Shown here one piece after another: positions 53,801-63,993 of a DNA stretch of 64,000 bases. Position numbers and translations under genes: made by a program. The stretch comes from Vulcanimicrobium alpinum (GTDB lineage Bacteria > Vulcanimicrobiota > Vulcanimicrobiia > Vulcanimicrobiales > Vulcanimicrobiaceae). Under the pieces are notes generated by a model that was not told the origin of the DNA, ran no database searches, and saw only the letters and a list, made by a program, of their open reading frames with translations. How positions within the stretch are numbered: the first letter of the stretch is position 1; each line of letters begins with the position of its first letter. The DNA is taken from positions 2,670,484 through 2,734,483 of the forward strand of contig NZ_AP025523.1 in the NCBI RefSeq assembly GCF_027923555.1, in the 5' to 3' direction.

Positions 53801-54142
53801 ATGGCGACACAATTGGTATGACGTTGCCCCGAGGCGTGCCCCAGTCATAAGTGGAGAGCAGGCAGCGAAGGGTCGTCCTTGGAGTTGCCCCGTTCGTTAT
53901 CGGCTGCGCGCCGCAAGACGAAGCCGACCGGTTTGGGAACCATCTTTCCGACGGCGGAAAACCGGGAGCGTGCGGCTGGCTCGAAGACAAATACGGCGTG
54001 TTGCGGCAAGTCGTGCCGTCGGCGCTGCCCGACTTTGCTCGGCGCCGACGACGACGCGAAAGCGGATGCGGTCATGCAGGCGATGCTGGCGACGAAGAAA
54101 CTCGACATCGCCGCATTGCAGGAGGCCTACGACCGGGCGTAG
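53801..54142 (+). pseudogene. Remnant of a VOC-family (PhnB-like) gene
   Basis: ATG 53801, with GGGGAGGACC upstream, encodes MATQLV and then stops. Downstream, the C-terminal half of a VOC protein is readable: DRFGNHLSDGGKPGACGWLE, DKYGVLRQVVPSALPDF, and after a one-base shift ADAVMQAMLATKKLDIAALQ. The family normally begins MATQ and has about 90 more residues in between. So the start and end survive with an internal deletion plus a frameshift near 54030. Clear gene decay. Confidence 0.75.
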
Positions 54143-54161
54143 CCCGGTCGCACGGATCTAA

Positions 54162-54530
54162 CTAGTGGGTGTTAATCGAGTCGGCGTTCAGTGAGTGATC
54201 GGCCTGCGCCGTACCGCTGACGTCGACCGTCATCCCCGGCGTGATCGTCGTGCCGCGCGGGTTGATGATCGTCCCCTGGTGGAGGTGAATCTGCCGGTAG
54301 ACGTTCGGCGCCGTCTCGATCTGCAAATCGAAGCGCCGGAAATACGTCACCTTGCCGTGAGCGGTGTTGCCGTTTGTGGTCTGCAGCAAGCCGCCGACCC
54401 CTTGGAGGATGCTCTGAACGATCGGGTTGTTCTGGACGTCGGGCGGCACGGAGGGGATGCTCTGCGCGAAAGCCACGCCGGCGCCCGCGATCCACAAAGC
54501 CGCCGTCAAAGGGAGAATGCGCGCTTTCAT
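54162..54530 (-). CDS. Small exported beta-barrel-like protein (DUF5666-like)
   Basis: A 122-residue protein with a signal peptide (LPLTAALWIAGAGVAFAQS). The mature part is a short OB-like barrel: KVTYFRRFDLQIETAPNVYR, HLHQGTIINPRGTTITPGM, VDVSGTAQADHSLNADSI. These resemble exported DUF5666-type modules. The function is unknown. Its start (ATG 54530) is well supported by the signal peptide. Confidence 0.72.
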   Translation of the reverse strand: MKARILPLTAALWIAGAGVAFAQSIPSVPPDVQNNPIVQSILQGVGGLLQTTNGNTAHGKVTYFRRFDLQIETAPNVYRQIHLHQGTIINPRGTTITPGMTVDVSGTAQADHSLNADSINTH

Positions 54531-54679
54531 ACCCACGCAACGAAGCGCCGCACCGGAATGTTGCGCGCATGGTGCGGAGTCGCTCGAATCACGGCCGGGG
54601 AGCAACCGCCGTCTCGTGCGCGCGGCCCGGAGCGCGGTGCCCACCTCGGGGGATCGCGCCGCTGCGTCCCCGGCCTACC

Positions 54680-54930
54680 TGAGGACCGAGAAGAAGCCGC
54701 GGCACGGGACCGACCTGTCGTCGCTGTGGGCGGTCGTGCCGACGTTCGCGGCCTACATGCTGAGGCTGCGCTTCGCGTTCGTCGCGCCGTTCATCTCCGA
54801 CGCGCTGTTCGTCATCGTCGTGATCATCTGGGTTCGTCTTCGACCGGCGTTTCGAACCGGTCATCGCCGAGCGCAAGGTCCGTCCCGCGCCGCGTGAAGT
54901 GCGGTCGCCGCATCGAGCAGTTGGCTCCAT
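54680..54930 (+). pseudogene. Remnant of a TMEM175/DUF1211-type potassium channel gene
   Basis: SSLWAVVPTFAAYMLR and FAFVAPFISDALFVIVVIIW are parts of TMEM175-type membrane repeats, followed after a one-base shift by FVFDRRFEPVIAERK, the family's usual C-terminus. The N-terminal helices and the segment between the two pieces are missing. No start codon with a ribosome-binding site is present. It is a decayed gene. Confidence 0.55.
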
Positions 54931-55023
54931 CAGCCGGCGGCGATATCTCCCTTGAAACGGCGCGACGCCGATGAGAGAATAGTGTCGTCAGCCCTCTCAC
55001 GATAGCGAGGGACGGAAAGGTTG

Positions 55024-55605
55024 ATGGCTATGGTGACTCATCTCGCGCGCGAGTGGTGGATCGTCGCCCTGCGCGGCGTGCTCGGGATTCTCTTCGGCGT
55101 CGTCGCCTTCGTGTGGCCGGGGATGACGCTACTCGTGCTGATCGCGCTCTTCGGCGCGTACATGTTCCTCGACGGTGTTGGCGCACTGGTCCAGGCGAAA
55201 CGGTTCCGCCACGAACGCGAACGCTGGCCGGCGCTGCTGGCCGAAGCGGCGCTCGGGATCATCATCGGCGTGGTGACGTTCTTCTGGCCCGGTGTCACCG
55301 CGCTCGCCTAGATCTACACGATCGCGGTGTGGGCGCTGCTCACCGGCGCGCTCGAGCTCTGGCTCGCGATCCGGCTGCGCCGCCAGTTCTCCGGCGAATG
55401 GTTCGTTCTGCTCACCGGCATCGCGTCGATTCTGCTCGGCATCGCGCTGCTGATCATGCCGCTGGCGGGTCTGATCGCCTGGGTGTGGACGATCGGCGCG
55501 TACTCGATCGTCTTCGGCGGCCTGCTCATCGCCTTTGCGCTCCGCCTGCGTCGAGGCTCGTCCTCCGCGCCGACGGACCTCTCGGCGGCGGCGGGCGCGC
55601 GCTGA
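55024..55605 (+). pseudogene. HdeD-family membrane protein with an in-frame amber stop
   Basis: About 193 codons encode six HdeD-type helices (REWWIVALRGVLGILFGVVA, MTLLVLIALFGAYMFLDGVG, FFWPGVTALA, then IYTIAVWALLTGALELWLAI and GSIVFGGLLIAFAL-like end). A TAG at 55309-55311 falls where the family has a Leu between TALA and IYT; one base change from TTG would explain it. The same frame runs on both sides. TAG ends other genes in this window, so it is a real stop. ATG 55024 has GGAAAGG upstream. Confidence 0.8.
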
Positions 55606-55610
55606 ACGGC

Positions 55611-56357
55611 TCAGCGTCCGCCGAACGGGTGAACGTCGTCGAGGAAGGCGGCGAGCTGGGCCGCGGCGGGTCCGCTCGACGCTGATTCGGCGAGCGCCGT
55701 TCGGGCGCGTCCGAGATGCAGGATCACCTGCAGCACCGCACGGCGATATGCCGGCGAGACGAGCAGCGCTTCGCGGACGCGTTCGGCCGCGGCCGCATCG
55801 CGCCGAGCGGATTCCAACAGCGTGACGAACGCATCGCGAGCCGGCCGTTCGAGCATCTCGACATGCCAGACCAACGGCAGCGTTCGCGTGCCGTTCCTGA
55901 TGTCGCGACGGTGCGGATCGGCGGAGAGTTCGGCGAGATCGGAGACGAACTGATTCGCCATCCCGTATTCGAAGCCGAGCCGCGCGAAGCAGCGCTGACG
56001 CTCCGGTGAAACGCGAGCGAGCACGGCGCCGAGGCCGGCAAAGAGCGCGCATTCGCCGCCGGTCTTCCCCGCGACCGACGAGAACACGCGACCGCTCGTC
56101 ACGTCGGAGGAACGCGCGTTGTCGAGGTCCTCGATTTGACCGTCGGCCATCTCCCCGAGTCCGCGCGCGATCCACAAATGGAGCTGCGCTTGGACCTCCG
56201 GGGAATCGTGCAGCGAATGCGCGATGACGTGCGCCGTCGTCGCGAGGAGCGCGCTGGCCATGACGCCGAGTTCGCTCGGATCGAACCCCGGCCACCGCGT
56301 TTGGACGTCGCCGTCGGCGATGTCATCGAGCGCGTCAAACGCGGTCCACAGCACCAA
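55611..56357 (-). CDS. ComQ/polyprenyl-synthetase-like protein
   Basis: At least 248 residues from TTG 56357, but the reading frame stays coding-like up to about 56600 (WRLPNRAAIVAAAREFAFRT, RLSLNTDLAPLVFAAATG), so the true protein is near 325 residues. No ATG, GTG or TTG is available in that upstream part. The first Asp motif is FDALDDIADGD and the second region FVSDLAELSADPHRRD, followed by NGTRTLPLVW. These match class-I isoprenyl diphosphate synthases and ComQ, which prenylates a peptide. It lies directly downstream of the NHLP-type peptide gene. Confidence 0.65.
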   Translation of the reverse strand: MVLWTAFDALDDIADGDVQTRWPGFDPSELGVMASALLATTAHVIAHSLHDSPEVQAQLHLWIARGLGEMADGQIEDLDNARSSDVTSGRVFSSVAGKTGGECALFAGLGAVLARVSPERQRCFARLGFEYGMANQFVSDLAELSADPHRRDIRNGTRTLPLVWHVEMLERPARDAFVTLLESARRDAAAAERVREALLVSPAYRRAVLQVILHLGRARTALAESASSGPAAAQLAAFLDDVHPFGGR

Positions 56358-56593
56358 CGTGAGCGCGGCGAGATCGACGCGCGCATGCGCGGAGCCCGTC
56401 GCCGCCGCGAAGACGAGCGGCGCAAGGTCCGTATTCAGTGAGAGCCGCTCGGAGACGGCGCGCGGATGCTCGATTGCAAACGCGAAGATCGCGCGATGCC
56501 GCGGGACCCGGATCGTGCGAAAGGCGAACTCCCTCGCCGCCGCGACGATCGCCGCGCGGTTCGGAAGCCGCCATTCCGCGGGAACTGCGACGG

Positions 56594-56800
56594 CTAACTC
56601 GCCATCATCTTGCTGACCCGCTGCGCGAGCTCTTCATGCGAGCCGGTCCAGTCCATGCTGTTGACGGCGGCTTCTTCTTCCGGCGTCAGACTGATGCCGT
56701 GTGCGACGATCGTTCCGTGCGGGTCTTTGCGGAATTCGTCCTTGAATCCAGGTTCGTTGGTCCAGCGATCCATCAGGGTAGCAACCGCTTCTTGGCTCAT
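56594..56800 (-). CDS. NHLP-clan (Os1348-like) putative RiPP precursor peptide
   Basis: A 68-residue peptide from ATG 56800 behind a perfect GGAGG. It has the NHLP/Nif11-like leader pattern: LMDRWTNEPGFKDEFRKDPH, GISLTPEEEAAVNSMDWTGS and a Ser/Met-rich end (RVSKMMAS). Similar short proteins (Os1348 type) occur beside peptide-modifying enzymes in several phyla, but their products are mostly unknown. There is no double-Gly cleavage site and no Cys core. Two Trp residues are present, which matters because of the adjacent ComQ-like gene. The peptide status is inferred. Confidence 0.65.
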   Translation of the reverse strand: MSQEAVATLMDRWTNEPGFKDEFRKDPHGTIVAHGISLTPEEEAAVNSMDWTGSHEELAQRVSKMMAS

Positions 56801-56908
56801 GACGCCTCCGAGGACGATGCGTAGGGGGGAATGTACCGTTTCGTCAGATCGGCTGCTTGGCCCCTGGCAAAGCCAATCGGCACAGGCGCACCGGGGAATG
56901 AACGTCGT

Positions 56909-58531
56909 ATGCAGCGAGATCCCGCCTGGCCGAGCGCGCACGAGTACGCCGAGGCCGTCGTCCGCCGCGATGCGATCGGCAACGCCGCCTCCCGCGATGC
57001 GGCGATCGAGCGCAAACCCGGCGGGACGCCCAAGGTGTACGCCGGCGCGTTTACCGCAACGTTTCACCTGATCGCGGCGAGCGGCGACACGGCGCTGCGC
57101 TGCTACACCCGCGAACGCGACGACGTCGAGCGGCGCTACACCGCGATCGCCGAACTGCTCCGCTACGCACGCACCGAGGCGCTGGTCCCGGCGCGCTATC
57201 TCGACGAAGGCATCTCGGTTGGCGGCGCGTGGTGGCCGGCCGTCTCGATGGAATGGGTCGGGGGCCGCGCACTCAACGCTGAGGTGGAGGCCCGTCTCGG
57301 CGACGGCGACGCTCTGCTCGCGCTGGCCGAGACGTTTCGCGAGATGGTGCGTTCGCTGGAGGCGCTGGGCATCGCGCACGGAGACCTGCAGCACGGCAAC
57401 ATCCTGGTGAGCGAGGGCGGCTTGCGCCTGATCGACTACGATGCGATGTACCTGCCGGCGATCGCGGACCTTCCGCAACGAGAATGGGGTCACCGCAACT
57501 ATCAGCATCCACGGCGCCGCGAGGCCGCGTTCGACGGCCGGCTCGACCGCTTCTCGTCGCTCGTGATCTACATCGCGCTGATCGCGCTCGCCGCGGACCG
57601 TTCGCTGTGGCGGCGATTCAACGACGGCGACAACCTGCTCTTCCGCGCGCACGATTTCACGTCGCACGGCGACTCGGAACTCTTTCGCTCGCTTCTCGCA
57701 TACAATGCGACCAGCGGCCTCGCGGGGGAATTGCTCGCAGCCTGTCGCGCTCCGGTCGACGACGTGCCGACGCTCGAGCAGGCGATCTCGGCGGCGTCGG
57801 GCACGATGCCCGCGGCGCGGCCCGATTCACCGCCGCGCCGCGCCACCTCGCCGGCGGCCGCAACGCCGCCTCCGCCGCCTCCGCCGCTTCCCGCCGAGGA
57901 CGCGACGGTGCGCGTCGCGGGCGTGCAACGCGTCGGGCGATCGACTGCGCTGACGGCGGTCGCCGTCGTTTTGATCGGGCTGCTCATCGGCGTCGCGCTC
58001 GCGGCGTGGACGCGCGGAACGCCGCGCACATCGACGTCGCGCTCCGGCCGCGAGACCATCGCAACCGCAACGCGTTCGACGCATGCTGCGACGCACGCGC
58101 CCGTCGCGACGCCGGCCGCGACGGCAACCCCGCTCGCGACGGCAACGCCGGTCGCAAAGCGGACCGTTCGCGTGAACGCCGCGCCGGTGCAAGGTACGTG
58201 GCAGATAGACGAAGCGAACGTGCAGGACGGCCGGATGGTCTGGACCGGAACCGCCGCGCGCTCGAGCGGCGGTGCGATCGTCCTCGACGTGCACAAGGCC
58301 AGCGTCGCCGGAAGTGCGGCGACGTCATGCGAACGCGCGACGAACCTGCACGTCCCCGTGCTCGCGGGCGCGGCGGGGCAGACGACGTCGTTTCAGGAGA
58401 GGAACTGCAGCGGCGCGACGTCGACGGGAGAGGTCCGAGTCGACGGCGTCGCGCCGGACGGACGGTCGTTCCGCGGCAGTTTTTGGCAGAGCGGGGTGAA
58501 GCTCGGCGACTTCATCGCCAGCAGGCAGTGA
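56909..58531 (+). CDS. Membrane-anchored protein-kinase-like protein
   Basis: A 540-residue protein from ATG 56909. The kinase-like core keeps the catalytic loop IAHGDLQHGNILV (157-164) and the metal motif LIDYDAMY (176-178). The usual beta-3 Lys is not evident: LRCYTRERDDV stands at that place. A Pro-rich linker follows, a membrane helix (ALTAVAVVLIGLLIGVALAA, about 347-367), a Thr/Ala-rich stalk and an exposed beta domain of about 110 residues (GTWQIDEANVQDGRMVWTG). It is divergent from the peptide gene. Confidence 0.75.
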   Translation: MQRDPAWPSAHEYAEAVVRRDAIGNAASRDAAIERKPGGTPKVYAGAFTATFHLIAASGDTALRCYTRERDDVERRYTAIAELLRYARTEALVPARYLDEGISVGGAWWPAVSMEWVGGRALNAEVEARLGDGDALLALAETFREMVRSLEALGIAHGDLQHGNILVSEGGLRLIDYDAMYLPAIADLPQREWGHRNYQHPRRREAAFDGRLDRFSSLVIYIALIALAADRSLWRRFNDGDNLLFRAHDFTSHGDSELFRSLLAYNATSGLAGELLAACRAPVDDVPTLEQAISAASGTMPAARPDSPPRRATSPAAATPPPPPPPLPAEDATVRVAGVQRVGRSTALTAVAVVLIGLLIGVALAAWTRGTPRTSTSRSGRETIATATRSTHAATHAPVATPAATATPLATATPVAKRTVRVNAAPVQGTWQIDEANVQDGRMVWTGTAARSSGGAIVLDVHKASVAGSAATSCERATNLHVPVLAGAAGQTTSFQERNCSGATSTGEVRVDGVAPDGRSFRGSFWQSGVKLGDFIASRQ

Positions 58532-58532
58532 G

Positions 58533-60545
58533 TCAGGCGGAGGCGGCGTCGTTGACGCGCCGCAACTCGGAGGCCAGCTTCACGATCGCCCCGACACAGA
58601 CGCCGACCGGGAGGATCCACGCCGCGGCCTCGGCGATGCCGGCCGGAACGATCTGCGCGAGCCGGTGTTGCCCGACGACCCGGTACACGACCAGACACTG
58701 CACCGCCGCGAACACGACATAGGCGATCGTCCCGGCGGAATACACGCACTCGACGACGTGGCCGCGGATGAGGCGCGGATTGCGCGCGACGGCACCGAAC
58801 TGCGACCCCAGCCATGCCAGGCTCTGGCGGCGCAGGTTCGGCCGGTCCAGCAGATCGACGAGGACGTAGTATCCGTCGAACTCGAGTAGCGGGTTGAGGT
58901 TCTCGACGACGCCGACGTAGGCGGCGAAAGCGAACTGCCACGCCGCGATGACCGCGATCGGCGACGCCGACCGCAACGCCGTCGCGGAGGCGATCGCGGC
59001 GAGGACGAGGTTTGCGACGAGGCCCGCGGCGGCGACCAGGACGCGCTGGTGCCGCGAGCACACCCAGGTGTCGGATGTGTCGACGAAGACGATCGGCCCG
59101 AACCAGAACCATCCGATGCCGACGCTTTCAACACGCCGGCCCACGGCCTTCACGGCCAGACCGTGCGCCGCTTCGTGCAGCGCGATCATCAGGGCATATG
59201 CCGGGATCATCAGCAGCACGAACGACGTTGCGCCGGCGGGAGTCCACAGCAGCGCGACGGCCTTCGGCGTGCTGGCGACGAATGCCGCGAGCCCGGCGAC
59301 TGCGACGAGGAGCAGCAGCACGGCCGACGGCCGCGAAAACAGCGCCGGCCCGACGACGCGGTACACGGCCGCGAACGCGCCGTCGACGTCGTCGTAGTGC
59401 ACGGTCCACGTCAGCAGTCCGCGAACGGTGCGCGCGATGCGCGCAGCGACGGAACTCGTGCGGGACTCGTCCCTGGCGGCGCGGACGCCGGAATCGGCTT
59501 GCAGAAATCCCTGGCGCTTCATCTGACCGACCGTATTGATCACCGTCTGCGGCGCGAAATGCCCGCGCTCGGTGAAGAGCGCGGTCGCGAGGTCGCGGAT
59601 CGTATGGGTGCCGTCGCAACGCTCCCACAGAAAGAGACTGTCGCCCGAAAGTCGGAAATACTTGTGATGAACGGGGTCTTTGAGGACCGCGATCTTGCTG
59701 CCGTCGGCGGCGATCTGACGATACGACTCGATCCCGTCCGCACGGAGGGGCCGGTCGCGCGAGTTCAGCAGGTCGATCATGCGCGCGCGGGCCGCGGCGT
59801 TCGTCTGCAGGATGTTCAAGAGCGGCTCGCGCTCGAGCGTCAGCAGCGCCGTCTGCTCGCGCGCAAGCACCGTCGCGTTGCGGCGGACGTCGTTGAGCAG
59901 CGCCGCCTCGCCGAACATCGCCCCGCGCCCGAGCGTCGCCAGGACGCGCTCCGTCTCGGCATCGATCACGTCGACGGAGCCGTCGACGATCACGTACGCT
60001 TCGTTGCCGACGTCGCCTTGCGTGACGATCTCCTCTCCCGCTTGCGCCACGCGGCGGTGCGCGCTGCGGACGAGCCCGCGCATCTCGTCGGCGCTGACCT
60101 CGTCGAACGACGACGTCGCGCGCACGAGGTGTTCGAGCATCTGGCGCTCCGTCCGATCGCGCAGCGCCGCCGCAAATGCCGGATCGGCGTCGACGATCCG
60201 CCGGAACAGCTCCGCATCGAGATGGACGACGTCGGCGTCCGACGCGGCGACGGCGACGACGGGCTGCGCCGCGTCGATATCGGCAAACGTGCCGGCGGCG
60301 CACGATTCGCCCGGGCTTGCCGTGCCGACGACGTGATCCGCACCGTTGCGCGTCTGCCGCAGGATCAGGTGGCCGCGGGCAACGAGCGAACACGTAGCGT
60401 CATCGCGTTCGAGACAGACGACGGTACCGGCCGGCACGTGCTGATCGCGCGCCATGCGGATCAGCGCCTCGAGATCCTCGGACGTCAACACGCCGTACGC
60501 GAGCGCGGCGCGCACGAGTTCGCTTCGTTCCGTTTCCTCGAGCAT
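58533..60545 (-). CDS. cNMP-binding/PqqD-like/M50 membrane metalloprotease
   Basis: A 670-residue protein. Residues 20-135 and 150-260 are two cNMP-type beta rolls (second one: RGAMFGEAALLNDVRRNATV). Residues 285-348 resemble a PqqD-like peptide-recognition domain (HHKYFRLSGDSLFLWERCDG, TIRDLATALF). Then comes an M50 site-2-type protease: zinc motif IALHEAAHGLA (457-461) and NPLLEFDGYYVLVD (Asp557). Such proteins accompany RiPP loci. It lies 1 bp from the convergent kinase-like gene. Confidence 0.82.
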   Translation of the reverse strand: MLEETERSELVRAALAYGVLTSEDLEALIRMARDQHVPAGTVVCLERDDATCSLVARGHLILRQTRNGADHVVGTASPGESCAAGTFADIDAAQPVVAVAASDADVVHLDAELFRRIVDADPAFAAALRDRTERQMLEHLVRATSSFDEVSADEMRGLVRSAHRRVAQAGEEIVTQGDVGNEAYVIVDGSVDVIDAETERVLATLGRGAMFGEAALLNDVRRNATVLAREQTALLTLEREPLLNILQTNAAARARMIDLLNSRDRPLRADGIESYRQIAADGSKIAVLKDPVHHKYFRLSGDSLFLWERCDGTHTIRDLATALFTERGHFAPQTVINTVGQMKRQGFLQADSGVRAARDESRTSSVAARIARTVRGLLTWTVHYDDVDGAFAAVYRVVGPALFSRPSAVLLLLVAVAGLAAFVASTPKAVALLWTPAGATSFVLLMIPAYALMIALHEAAHGLAVKAVGRRVESVGIGWFWFGPIVFVDTSDTWVCSRHQRVLVAAAGLVANLVLAAIASATALRSASPIAVIAAWQFAFAAYVGVVENLNPLLEFDGYYVLVDLLDRPNLRRQSLAWLGSQFGAVARNPRLIRGHVVECVYSAGTIAYVVFAAVQCLVVYRVVGQHRLAQIVPAGIAEAAAWILPVGVCVGAIVKLASELRRVNDAASA

Positions 60546-60632
60546 CGACGGCCTCGGCTGGTGAGTCGACGGCGTTCGGACTTCGCAGCGTGCTCCCCTG
60601 GGCAGCCGCGACGGGCCGTCGCGGCGTATGCT

Positions 60633-61040
60633 TCAGCGGACCGCGCGAGCGCGGGTCGCGAGCATCGGCGCTGCCGCGGCCACGCCAACGCCGGCGCCGC
60701 CGGTGGCGAACAGCGTGAGCGCCGCGCCGGCGGCATCCGGGTTCACCGTCATGAGAAAGAGTAGCGCGCACGCGTTGACCGTCGAAAACACGCCGGCGCC
60801 GCGCAGGATCGGGTCGCGCCGCAGCGCATGGTCCGCCGCGATCGTCGCACGGTTGCGGGCGAACGCCGCCGCGGCGAGCGCGCCCAAGCGGCGTGCGAGC
60901 ACCACTTTGCCGACGATCGCGCCGGGCGACGACGAGCGCGAAGGCGGCAAGAAGCCACGCCGTGCGCCAATCGCGGCCTCCGCCGCCATCAGCGCGACGC
61001 CCGACGCGACGAGGAGCAGTGTCGACGCCGGAAAGAGCAC
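60633..61040 (-). CDS. Partial small membrane protein (DUF2269-like)
   Basis: A frame with helices FPASTLLLVASGVALMAAEA, VFSTVNACALLFLMTVNP and AALTLFATGGAGVGVAAAAP, of the layout seen in DUF2269-type proteins. The start is uncertain (GTG 61040), and the N-terminal helix expected in the family is absent; the upstream 150 bp border the IS481 element. It may be a fragment cut during an insertion. Low certainty. Confidence 0.4.
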   Translation of the reverse strand: MLFPASTLLLVASGVALMAAEAAIGARRGFLPPSRSSSPGAIVGKVVLARRLGALAAAAFARNRATIAADHALRRDPILRGAGVFSTVNACALLFLMTVNPDAAGAALTLFATGGAGVGVAAAAPMLATRARAVR

Positions 61041-61647
61041 AGGAACCAGTTTGCCCGCGTTCAGGGCTCTCGGATCTCCGCCCTCTGCGTCGCCCGTCGG
61101 ATCCGCTCCATCATGACGGTTTCGAGGGTCACAGCACCGGGGAGCTGTTGCTTCCCGACAGGTCCAGGACACCTTCTCGGATGATGGTATCTGAACCTGA
61201 CGGAGCGAACGTGTGACGATGAGCCGTTCAAACTCCAAGCTGACGGCGCGCGGCCGGCTGGCGATGGTGAAGCGGCTTGTACGAGGCGAATCAGGGCGAG
61301 CGGTCGCAGCCGGCTTGGGATTGGCCGTTTCCAACGTGTATCGTTGGTGGGCTCGATACCGCGAGGAAGGCGCAGCTGGTCTTGCCGATCGCACGTCTCG
61401 TCCGCTTGTCATCACCGTGGAAATGCAGAACTCAAAGACAAGGTTGAAGCGCTGCGGCGCAAGCGATGGACGTACGCGCGTCTTGCTGCCGTCGTCGGCC
61501 GCAGCGAATCAGCTGTAGCGCGCGTCGCTCAAGAACGCGGGGTTGCGAGGCTTGATCGCTTGGACCCTCGTGAGTCGGTGATTCGATACGAGCGCGCTAA
61601 CCCGGGTGAGCTCGTTCATTTCGACAACAAGAAGTTGGGCCGAAATG

Positions 61648-61656
61648 AGTACATCG
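61648..61656. repeat. Target-site duplication, left copy (IS256)
   Basis: AGTACATCG, repeated exactly at 63018-63026 on the other side of the inserted element. Nine bases is a usual duplication length for the IS256 family. Joining the IS481 reading frame across one copy restores a continuous frame (NEYIGHRITGD). Confidence 0.85.
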
Positions 61657-63017
61657 TCCCCAGCCGTGGTGTACGAGCGGTGGCTCGGCGAGGGTAGCGC
61701 TCAGCCGTTAATCACGGCGGAGAGCTTGGCGGGCTGATTATCGCTGACGGCACTGAGTCCTTCGAGTTGCATGTAGCGCCGCTGCAGTTGCCATTCGTCG
61801 TTCTGTTCCAGTAGGAGCGCACCGACGAGGCGTACGATGGCAGCATCGTTCGGGAAGATACCGACGACATCGGTGCGCCGCTTGATCTCCGCGTTGACCC
61901 GTTCGAGCGGATTGGTTGAGGCGATCTGCTTGCGGTGCGCCTTGGGAAAGTCCATGTACGCGAGCACGTCGTTCTCGGCGTCGTCCATCATCGCCGCGAG
62001 CTTCGGGAACTTCTGCCGAAGCTGCTCGGAGACGATACGCCATTGCTCGTGCGCAGCTTCCGCTGTCTCTTGCGCGAATACCGTGTTGATCAACGCGAGG
62101 ACCATCTGCCGTTGCCCTTTACCCGCATGTGCGAGCGCGTTTCGCATAAAATGCACGCGGCAGCGCTGCCACGTTGCTTTGAATACTTTCGCGATGGCCG
62201 CTTTCAGGCCGACATGCGAGTCGGAAATGACGAGCTTGACACCGCGCAATCCGCGGCGGCTCAAGCTGCGAAGAAAGTCGATCCAGAACGGCTCTGCTTC
62301 GCTCGGACCAACCGCGAGGCCCAACAATTCCCGTGTCCCATCGGTGTTTACGCCGACGGCCAGTATCACGGCGACCGAGACGATGCGTCCGCCGGAGCGC
62401 GTCTTCACGTACGTCGCGTCGATCCAAAGATAGGGCCAGTCGCCTTCGATCGGCCGGGTAAGAAATGCGTTCACGCGTTCGTCGATCTCTTCGCACAGCC
62501 GTGAGACCTGACTCTTGGAGATGCCTGTCATCCCCATCGCCTTGACGAGCTCGTCGACCGAGCGCGTGGAGATGCCCTGGATGTAGGCCTCTTGGATGAC
62601 GGCGGTGAGCGCCTTCTCCGCCGTGCGGCGCGGCTCGAGGAACGCGGGGAAGTAGCTACCTTTGCGCAACTTGGGGATGCGCAGTCCGATCGTGCCGGAA
62701 CGCGTCTCCCATTGGCGCTCGCGGAAGCCGTTGCGGGCGTTCTGTCGGCCGGGGCCGCGCTCGCCGTAGGGCAAGCCGCAGAGTTCCTCAACATCGATCT
62801 CCATGATCCGCTGCCCGGCGTACTGGAGCATCTCGCGAACGAAGTCGACGTCGCCGCCCTTTTCGACGAGCTCGGAAAGTGCGATACTGGGTTTGGCCAT
62901 CGTGGATCCCTTTCGGTCGGTTATTTGTTGCAAAAACAACCTTCGCCGAAAGCCACGATGGCCGCTCTCTATGCTACAAGGGCGACCCTCTCATACACCA
63001 CGGGCCGGGACACGATC
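61657..63017 (-). mobile_element. IS256-family insertion sequence
   Basis: A 1361-bp element with a single transposase gene read leftward, flanked by AGTACATCG duplications. The ends are imperfect inverted repeats: CCGTGGTGTACGAG (left, 61662-61677 area) against CCGTGGTGTATGAG on the opposite strand of the right end (about 62985-63003). The exact outermost bases are unclear because the right end has about seven extra bases. The transposase is intact, so this copy may be recent. Confidence 0.88.
61701..62900 (-). CDS. IS256-family transposase
   Basis: A 399-residue transposase from ATG 62900 ([12 protein letters not shown]). The mutator-type DDE core is present: Asp in [14 protein letters not shown], Asp in [17 protein letters not shown] with [11 protein letters not shown], and Glu in [15 protein letters not shown]. 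The length and order are normal for the family, and the frame is intact, unlike the IS481 gene it interrupts. Confidence 0.94.
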
Positions 63018-63026
63018 AGTACATCG
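63018..63026. repeat. Target-site duplication, right copy (IS256)
   Basis: AGTACATCG, the second copy; see the left copy at 61648-61656. The IS481 frame resumes here. Confidence 0.85.
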
Positions 63027-63256
63027 GCCATCGAATCACTGGCGATCGACGTGGACAACACAGCACTCGCTTAACGCGCGGATGGGAATTTGCGCACGTT
63101 GCAATCGACGACGCATCGCGCAGTTCGTACAATCGAGGTTCTTCCGAACGAGCAAGGCCAGACGGCGACGGCGTTTGCGGAACGCGCGCTGGCGTGGTTT
63201 GCAAGCCTTGGCGTCCGCGTCGAGCGCATTATGAGCGACAACGGTTCCGCATATCG

Positions 63257-63400
63257 CTTGGTTCGCACCTGGGCCGAGCGCGGGGCGCTCCGCGCCGGGC
63301 TTTCCGAAAACGAAGCAGCGGACGTCATGTGGGCGGTGTCGAGCGACGCGCTCTACACGCAATTCGTGCGCGAGCTGCAACGGCGGGGGCGATTTCTTCT
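63257..63400 (+). pseudogene. Fragment of a TetR-type regulator C-terminus
   Basis: RTWAERGALRAGLSENEAAD and VMWAVSSDALYTQFVREL match the ligand-domain end of TetR-family regulators (typically LRxGLSxxEAADxxWAxxSxxxY). No DNA-binding part is present; the fragment is fused in frame to the truncated IS481 gene at about 63256. It marks a junction of unrelated genes. Confidence 0.5.
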
Positions 63401-63993
63401 GCGTCGGCGGTAATTTTTCGCTCACCGGCGATGGTGCTGCTGGAGATGCTGCTGCCGATCATGCACATCCGCGACGAAGCGGAGAAGGCGGTGTTGCGCT
63501 GATGCATCGAGCGGACCAGCCAGGAGCTGCGCGCACCGCGACCCGGCGGCTTCTCGTCGCGCAGCAGCTCGCGACGTTGATGCTGGTGCAAGCCCTGCGC
63601 CGGCATCTTATAGAAGGCATCAGCTCCGGCGTCGGGTCGCTTGTCGCGCTGGCGGATCCGCACATGAAGGCCGCGATCACGGCGATGCACGACGACCCGT
63701 CGCACCGCTGGACGCTGCAGTCGCTGGCGGAGCGCGCCGGGACGTCGCGTACGAGCTTCGCGCTGAGTTTCAAGGAGACGGCGGGCACCTCACCGATGGA
63801 ATACCTCACACGCTGGCGGATAATGCTTGCCGGCGATCGACTCGCGACCTCCCGCGACTCCGTCTCCGAGATCACGCAGGCACTCGGTTACGAATCGGAG
63901 AGCACGTTCAACACCGCGTTCAAGCGGCTCCAAGGATGTTCGCCGCGTCAGTACAGCCGCGGCAGCAGCGTCCCGCCGCAGATCAGAGCCTGA
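63385..63993 (+). pseudogene. Degraded AraC-family regulator (cupin_6 type)
   Basis: The C-terminal two helix-turn-helix units are readable: WTLQSLAERAGTSRTSFALS and VSEITQALGYESESTFNTAF. Upstream, the cupin-type N-terminal part survives as GGNFSLTGD and LLEMLLPIMHIRDEAEKAVL, but a TGA falls where a Trp is expected (LR-stop-CIERTSQELRAPRPGG), and one base is missing near 63550 before VAQQLATLMLVQALRRHL. The first ~100 residues are absent. It is dead unless it initiates downstream. Confidence 0.7.

Follow-up and report, generated by a model that had tools for sequence, protein, structure and literature searches.

An earlier note on a 64,000-nucleotide stretch of DNA from Vulcanimicrobium alpinum (hereafter the window, which is part of a closed 3.5 Mb genome, G000) had proposed an undescribed peptide-modification locus at positions 55611 to 60545. 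We observed that this locus appears, from its sequence, to be a rare and so far undescribed version of peptide-maturation systems already known. With a probability of about 0.5, it would encode a small module resembling those that make ribosomally synthesized and post-translationally modified peptides (RiPPs), in which membrane proteolysis of a peptide is guided by a RiPP recognition element (RRE), here probably together with prenylation. From high to low coordinates, its genes encode a 670-amino-acid protein (minus strand), a kinase-like protein (plus strand), a 68-amino-acid peptide (minus strand) and a polyprenyl-synthetase-like product (minus strand). The earlier note had placed these four genes here, and reading of the open reading frames (ORFs) together with family scans confirmed all of them.

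The peptide gene (56594-56800, minus strand) is preceded by the ribosome-binding site GGAGG (56805-56809, minus strand), which sits four bases 5' of the ATG. Its product scores 44.7 bits with the NCBIfam model NF038399 "Os1348 family NHLP clan" (cut-off 40), and an orthologue, P0009, reaches 56.5 bits; the NHLP-clan assignment and the strong ribosome-binding site first read from the sequence are therefore both upheld. We aligned the translation with two orthologous peptides, from G028 and G111, which are close to each other, so that the effective sample is two. The alignment delimits a helical leader-like domain (residues 1-45), a variable linker (46-57) and a conserved tail LxxRVSKxxxxS (58-68), and the window peptide ends in ...MMAS. 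Shared columns number 22 out of 69, with conserved blocks at 1-45 and 58-68 and not a single invariant column in the linker. As far as the alignment tells, two conserved blocks around a variable linker are the layout of a leader and a core; together with the NF038399 match, this supports the view that the peptide is a RiPP-like precursor.

The 670-amino-acid protein (58533-60545, minus strand) was analysed by Pfam and NCBIfam scans, a structure model and a fold search with residues 265-670. It comprises two domains resembling those that bind cyclic nucleotide monophosphates (cNMP; E = 5e-27, in two stretches), a PqqD-like RRE and an M50 site-2 protease. The PqqD match of 22.4 bits falls just below the Pfam cut-off of 23.4, and the orthologue of G028 lies above it with 24.4 bits; for M50 the scores are 20.7 bits against a cut-off of 27.2, and 29.2 bits for the same orthologue. 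With NF041824, the model of RRE-M50 daptide proteases, we obtained 138.8 bits across both domains, missing the cut-off of 300. A profile made from 17 sequences of the PqqD-M50 part matched TbiB1 (1.7e-5), TfuB1 and PqqD (0.027) in its first region; in its protease region it matched MJ0392 and RseP, both S2P proteases. The AlphaFold model of residues 265-670 (mean pLDDT 83.5) begins with three strands followed by three helices, which is the order required of an RRE (PMC12710340). Foldseek ranked TbiB1 in complex with its leader first and TfuB1 next, with a probability of 1.00 and a TM-score on the target of 0.71-0.76, despite E-values above 0.05 for the RRE. In terms of predicted structure, the nearest solved folds of the domain (about residues 270-350; 59496-59738, minus strand) are thus lasso-peptide RREs. 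The family scans, the profile matches to TbiB1, TfuB1 and PqqD and the predicted fold show that an RRE is present and fused to the M50 part, as had been suspected, and the profile searches of the PqqD-like region on which the earlier note had staked its proposal did return matches. The HEAAH zinc-binding motif of M50 (residues 457-461; 59163-59177, minus strand), whose HExxH is invariant in the 17-sequence alignment, and NLNPLLEFDGY (residues 549-559; 58869-58901, minus strand), which aligns with the NxxPxxxxDG motif of site-2 proteases, are both intact, which points to a protease core with its catalytic motifs kept.

As for the cNMP part, the second domain keeps the FGE-ALL-R-A cassette and the first is degenerate in the window genome; by eye, the first is intact in the G028 orthologue, P0008 (FGE...RTAS). 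The cNMP domain matches Pycsar TIR effectors (PADLOC, 37 bits), and one could imagine a defence or stress protease triggered by a cyclic nucleotide through Pycsar-like sensing, with the peptide as its regulator or substrate. We judge this highly improbable: the match is confined to the cNMP domain, the RRE points to a peptide substrate and a relative described below, P0005, has no cNMP part at all. The PADLOC defence-system scan gave only generic domain matches for the protease.

Among 149 genomes of the phylum, the cNMP-RRE-M50 protein with all its parts was found in three, G000, G028 and G111, the latter two being closely related species of another genus. In G028, a 69-amino-acid Os1348-type peptide gene is the next gene downstream of the protease gene, 46 bases away. 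An Os1348-type peptide gene likewise adjoins the protease gene in G111, where the protease gene is broken by an assembly gap. Since peptide and protease genes are adjacent in these two further genomes and only the kinase gene lies between them in the window, their linkage exceeds chance, and we consider it likely that the RRE-protease acts on the peptide. The expectation that the genes would co-occur in relatives is thus satisfied for this pair but not for the ComQ-like gene and the kinase, neither of which is found at the G028 or G111 loci. The genomes were sampled, the loci are few and the flanks inspected were 1.5 kb for many matches. Within this frame, plasmids yielded only distant M50-HlyD or cNMP proteins and no ComQ relative, and viral contigs yielded no relatives. 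A set of 398 Pseudomonadota contained many RRE-M50 proteins of an HlyD-type subfamily, and no ComQ relative was found within the 1.5 kb flanks of their genes. We set aside the other NHLP-like matches of the phylum, which fall within longer proteins or close to radical-SAM-like genes. In G135, G137 and G139, which belong to a different family of the phylum (loci L051, L054, L055 and L056), several NHLP-like N-terminal domains are part of proteins of about 470-545 amino acids, which by eye adjoin B12-binding radical-SAM-like genes and, in L056, also an ABC-exporter-like gene.

The ComQ-like ORF (55611-56618, minus strand; product P0001) resembles trans-isoprenyl diphosphate synthases and overlaps the end of the peptide frame. 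It matches Pfam polyprenyl_synt PF00348 with 45.4 bits (cut-off 27), so its identification as a ComQ/polyprenyl-synthetase-like gene holds; the start proposed for it, TTG 56357, is probably too late, lying only some ten codons before the first Asp-rich motif (FARM). In the interval 56357-56642 the frame is open, and GC periodicity and the alignment to a relative, P0006, reach back to about 56560-56590, beside the peptide stop. No ATG, GTG or TTG start was found in this frame upstream of TTG 56357, and the ATG present at 56574 is out of frame. A frameshift fusion of peptide and ComQ-like protein was considered and rejected, as no classical slippery heptamer was seen by eye in the 45-base overlap.

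Of the four polyprenyl-synthetase homologues that the genome encodes, P0001 is the most divergent; the other three are ordinary synthases encoded elsewhere. In the polyprenyl-synthetase family, the GKRxRP motif holds isopentenyl diphosphate (IPP). This motif is gone from P0001 and P0006, and GKRxR is present in the ordinary synthases aligned in frame. Alignment with the canonical synthases of the same genomes also showed that the FARM is kept as DDIAD (residues 98-102; 56313-56327, minus strand) and that the second Asp-rich motif (SARM) reads SDLAE (residues 226-230; 55929-55943, minus strand), with the second Asp alone kept. ComQ itself carries a pseudo-SARM in which only the second Asp remains (PMC5331326). 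The loss of GKRxRP and the ComQ-type pseudo-SARM together argue, at the level of motifs, that P0001 is no housekeeping synthase; the candidate role of an ordinary trans-isoprenyl diphosphate synthase was rejected because GKRxRP and an intact SARM are lost and three ordinary synthases are present. Comparison with the published motif description of ComQ supports the view that the enzyme bears the signature of peptide prenyltransferases.

A pattern scan of 84,980 species identified one further relative of the protease, P0005, in a metagenome-assembled genome of the Sphingomonadaceae (G060, locus L007). P0005 has no cNMP part and shares with the window protease the stretch GWFWFxxxxFVDTSDxW, which is missing from the HlyD-type RRE-M50 proteins of the alignment. 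Its start overlaps the stop of P0006, indicating translational coupling. P0006 is the ComQ-like protein of this operon; P0006 and P0001 are reciprocal best matches, with 59-62 bits against at most 33 bits to ordinary synthases of the same genomes, and in both GKRxRP is lost and the SARM altered. Such ComQ relatives are rare, G060 giving the sole match among 299 genomes of its family and 385 Alphaproteobacteria. The operon (L007:8762-13747) is headed by a 49-amino-acid ORF. Five overlapping genes follow, first those of the ComQ-like protein and the RRE-M50 protein, then one for a UbiE-like methyltransferase, one for an IPP isomerase (167.5 bits, cut-off 127) and one for a StyA-like monooxygenase. 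The 49-amino-acid ORF shows normal codon periodicity and is provided with a ribosome-binding site; its product, the candidate peptide, has the C-terminus ...GGGQGGTAC, with a terminal Cys, and contains no Trp. The proposed association of a ComQ-like gene with the protease is thereby strengthened, the same protease subfamily adjoining a ComQ-like gene in a second phylum. That two unrelated rare subfamilies are paired in two phyla is the strongest argument for a functional pairing.

Could the ComQ-like protein instead serve small-molecule isoprenoid metabolism, unrelated to the peptide, in the manner of Ord1, which farnesylates free Trp, or of an encapsulin cargo? The best single model for P0001 is indeed NF041169, encapsulin cargo polyprenyl transferase (62.6 bits, cut-off 450), and the IPP isomerase, UbiE-like methyltransferase and StyA-like monooxygenase of the sphingomonad would also suit a meroterpenoid. 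Nevertheless, an RRE-M50 protein, an enzyme type of peptide maturation, occurs at both loci, and the ComQ-like ORF lies on the strand of the peptide gene and overlaps it, so that we regard such a role as improbable. The encapsulin cargo role in particular was rejected, given the low score and the fact that no shell was found above cut-off in the genome with the family 2B model.

Several observations weigh against the module as we propose it. The RRE lacks significant Foldseek E-values, the pairing of peptide and protease rests on three genomes of which two are closely related, and the ComQ-like gene is missing from the other two loci. No transporter or immunity gene adjoins the locus. The ComQ-like ORF, having no normal start codon, may have a disrupted frame or begin at an unusual start. 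Finally, the peptide does not fit known ComQ/PalQ-type substrates, in which the acceptor Trp is at or near the C-terminus: ComQ acts on a Trp 2-5 residues from the C-terminus (PMC5331326) and PalQ prenylates the terminal Trp of the NHLP-type precursor PalX (PMC10853753). The window peptide does contain the two Trp residues on which the idea of Trp prenylation was based, but these are W13 and W51 of 68, the former in the first leader helix region and the latter in the variable linker, 18 residues from the end. The conserved tail contains neither Trp nor Cys, and the G028 and G111 peptides have no Trp. W51 aligns, in a weak structural match, with a Trp of the gallate dioxygenase fold and may be structural rather than an acceptor. 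On this sequence evidence, a Trp as acceptor is doubtful.

These considerations bear on a simpler explanation, namely that the unit consists of the peptide and the cNMP-RRE-M50 protein alone, that the peptide is cleaved and otherwise unmodified, and that the ComQ-like gene adjoins them by chance or is decaying. We take this seriously, although we lean away from it. It accounts for the pair standing alone in G028 and G111, for the ComQ-like ORF without a standard start and for the Trp positions. On the other hand, this ORF, which follows the peptide gene directly, is an uninterrupted frame of 335 codons whose codon periodicity is normal, and P0006, its nearest known relative, is translationally coupled in another phylum to P0005, the protease's nearest outside relative, a coincidence that the rarity of such ComQ relatives makes harder to accept. 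That the ComQ-like enzyme prenylates the window peptide is put forward tentatively, at somewhat less than even odds.

The combination of an NHLP-type precursor with a ComQ-like prenyltransferase has already been described as PalX/PalQ (PMC10853753), and an RRE-dependent or RRE-fused intramembrane site-2 peptidase as MpaP of the daptides (PMC10036551). The earlier claim that no described system contains this set hence fails for the two halves and stands for the whole: within partial literature coverage, we found no report joining NHLP/ComQ-like genes with RRE-M50, or cNMP domains fused to RRE-M50. Like the window locus, the three-gene PalX/PalQ/PalP locus of Paenibacillus alvei places a precursor of NHLP type next to a prenyltransferase belonging to the isoprenoid-synthase superfamily (PMC10853753); unlike it, PalX is prenylated on its C-terminal Trp, a histidine kinase, PalP, is encoded, the locus is described without an RRE-M50 protease and PalQ reportedly retains the SARM residues D200 and D204, whereas P0001 keeps the second Asp alone. 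ComQ/ComX shares with P0001 the kept FARM, the pseudo-SARM and the position beside the peptide gene, but neither an NHLP leader nor a dedicated RRE protease is reported for ComX (PMC5331326). The daptide protease MpaP (NF041824) has the same order of RRE and M50 core, with 131-139 bits across both parts, below the cut-off of 300; the window protease has additional cNMP domains, its peptide is NHLP-type without a C-terminal Thr, and none of the daptide aminotransferase, decarboxylase or DUF-RRE genes (MpaA-D/M) was seen in the window neighbourhood.

The Os1348 cluster of Pseudomonas sp. Os17 (PMC7726476; PDB 6LK7) offers the same peptide family and a metallopeptidase-like gene, but Os1349-1351 are an acetyltransferase, an MA-clan-like peptidase and a SagB-type dehydrogenase, with no ComQ or RRE-M50. 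The tandem cNMP proteins TIGR03896 of bacteriocin-type transport loci share the tandem cNMP domains and the bacteriocin context; proteins of the window type reach 49-69 bits against a cut-off of 161, in the cNMP part only, and no such transporter adjoins the locus. The locus would therefore be new in joining known parts, NHLP with ComQ-like and RRE with M50, with a smaller chance of an undescribed class.

The kinase-like protein with a transmembrane segment and an exposed domain (56831-58531, plus strand) is real, as had been noted, but its membership in the system is not borne out. Its start is probably M27 (56909), since homologues begin at residues 20-31. Full-length relatives with 52-56% identity are encoded in G017 and G030, both without the other genes of the locus, and it was on this ground rejected as a partner; it matches PADLOC STK_OB with 221 bits. 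Related C-terminal parts also occur in G006 and G007. Past the protease gene, transposase-like ORFs at 61213-63413 (by eye IS630-like, IS256-like and an integrase-core fragment) indicate that the locus borders a mobile region. In 55400-61200 we counted eight terminator-like hairpins, where shuffled sequence gave an expectation of 3.0; none of them is clearly placed at the end of a gene. An Rfam scan of 54000-62000 gave no match and a promoter scan found nothing.

In the module that we propose, the NHLP-type peptide would be the substrate. The RRE of the 670-amino-acid membrane protein would bind its leader and hand it to the attached site-2 protease, which would cut it at or in the membrane and free a C-terminal product with the conserved RVSK tail. 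The cNMP-type domains could plausibly couple cleavage to the cyclic nucleotide level. In G000, the ComQ-like enzyme added to the peptide operon, without the IPP site but with the Asp motif that binds prenyl diphosphate, would probably lipidate either the peptide or the product derived from it, ahead of cleavage or at about the time of it. By analogy, precedents exist for each of these steps separately, nucleotide control excepted; besides those above, they include EpeP and TglG (PMC10885120) and the docking of NHLP helices on an RRE (PMC12455567).

We think it unlikely, if worth stating, that an undescribed RiPP class is at hand, in which a GWFWF/FVDTSD-subfamily RRE-site-2 protease and a trans-isoprenyl diphosphate synthase-like prenyltransferase without IPP site act on differing precursors in at least two phyla. 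The terminal Cys, methyltransferase and IPP isomerase of the sphingomonad would then fit a bacterial prenylation of a C-terminal Cys with protease and methyltransferase steps, an outline resembling the eukaryotic CaaX pathway, and in the window organism a cyclic nucleotide would gate the release step.

Only a few systems are known in which ComQ-like enzymes prenylate bacterial peptides, in all of them on Trp, and the protease releasing ComX has been described as unknown. If our proposal is true, a ComQ-like enzyme and an NHLP peptide accompanied by a membrane protease of the leader-binding type would provide a defined protease partner and possibly a non-Trp acceptor, and an RRE-protease fused to nucleotide-sensing domains would represent a new means of controlling peptide maturation.

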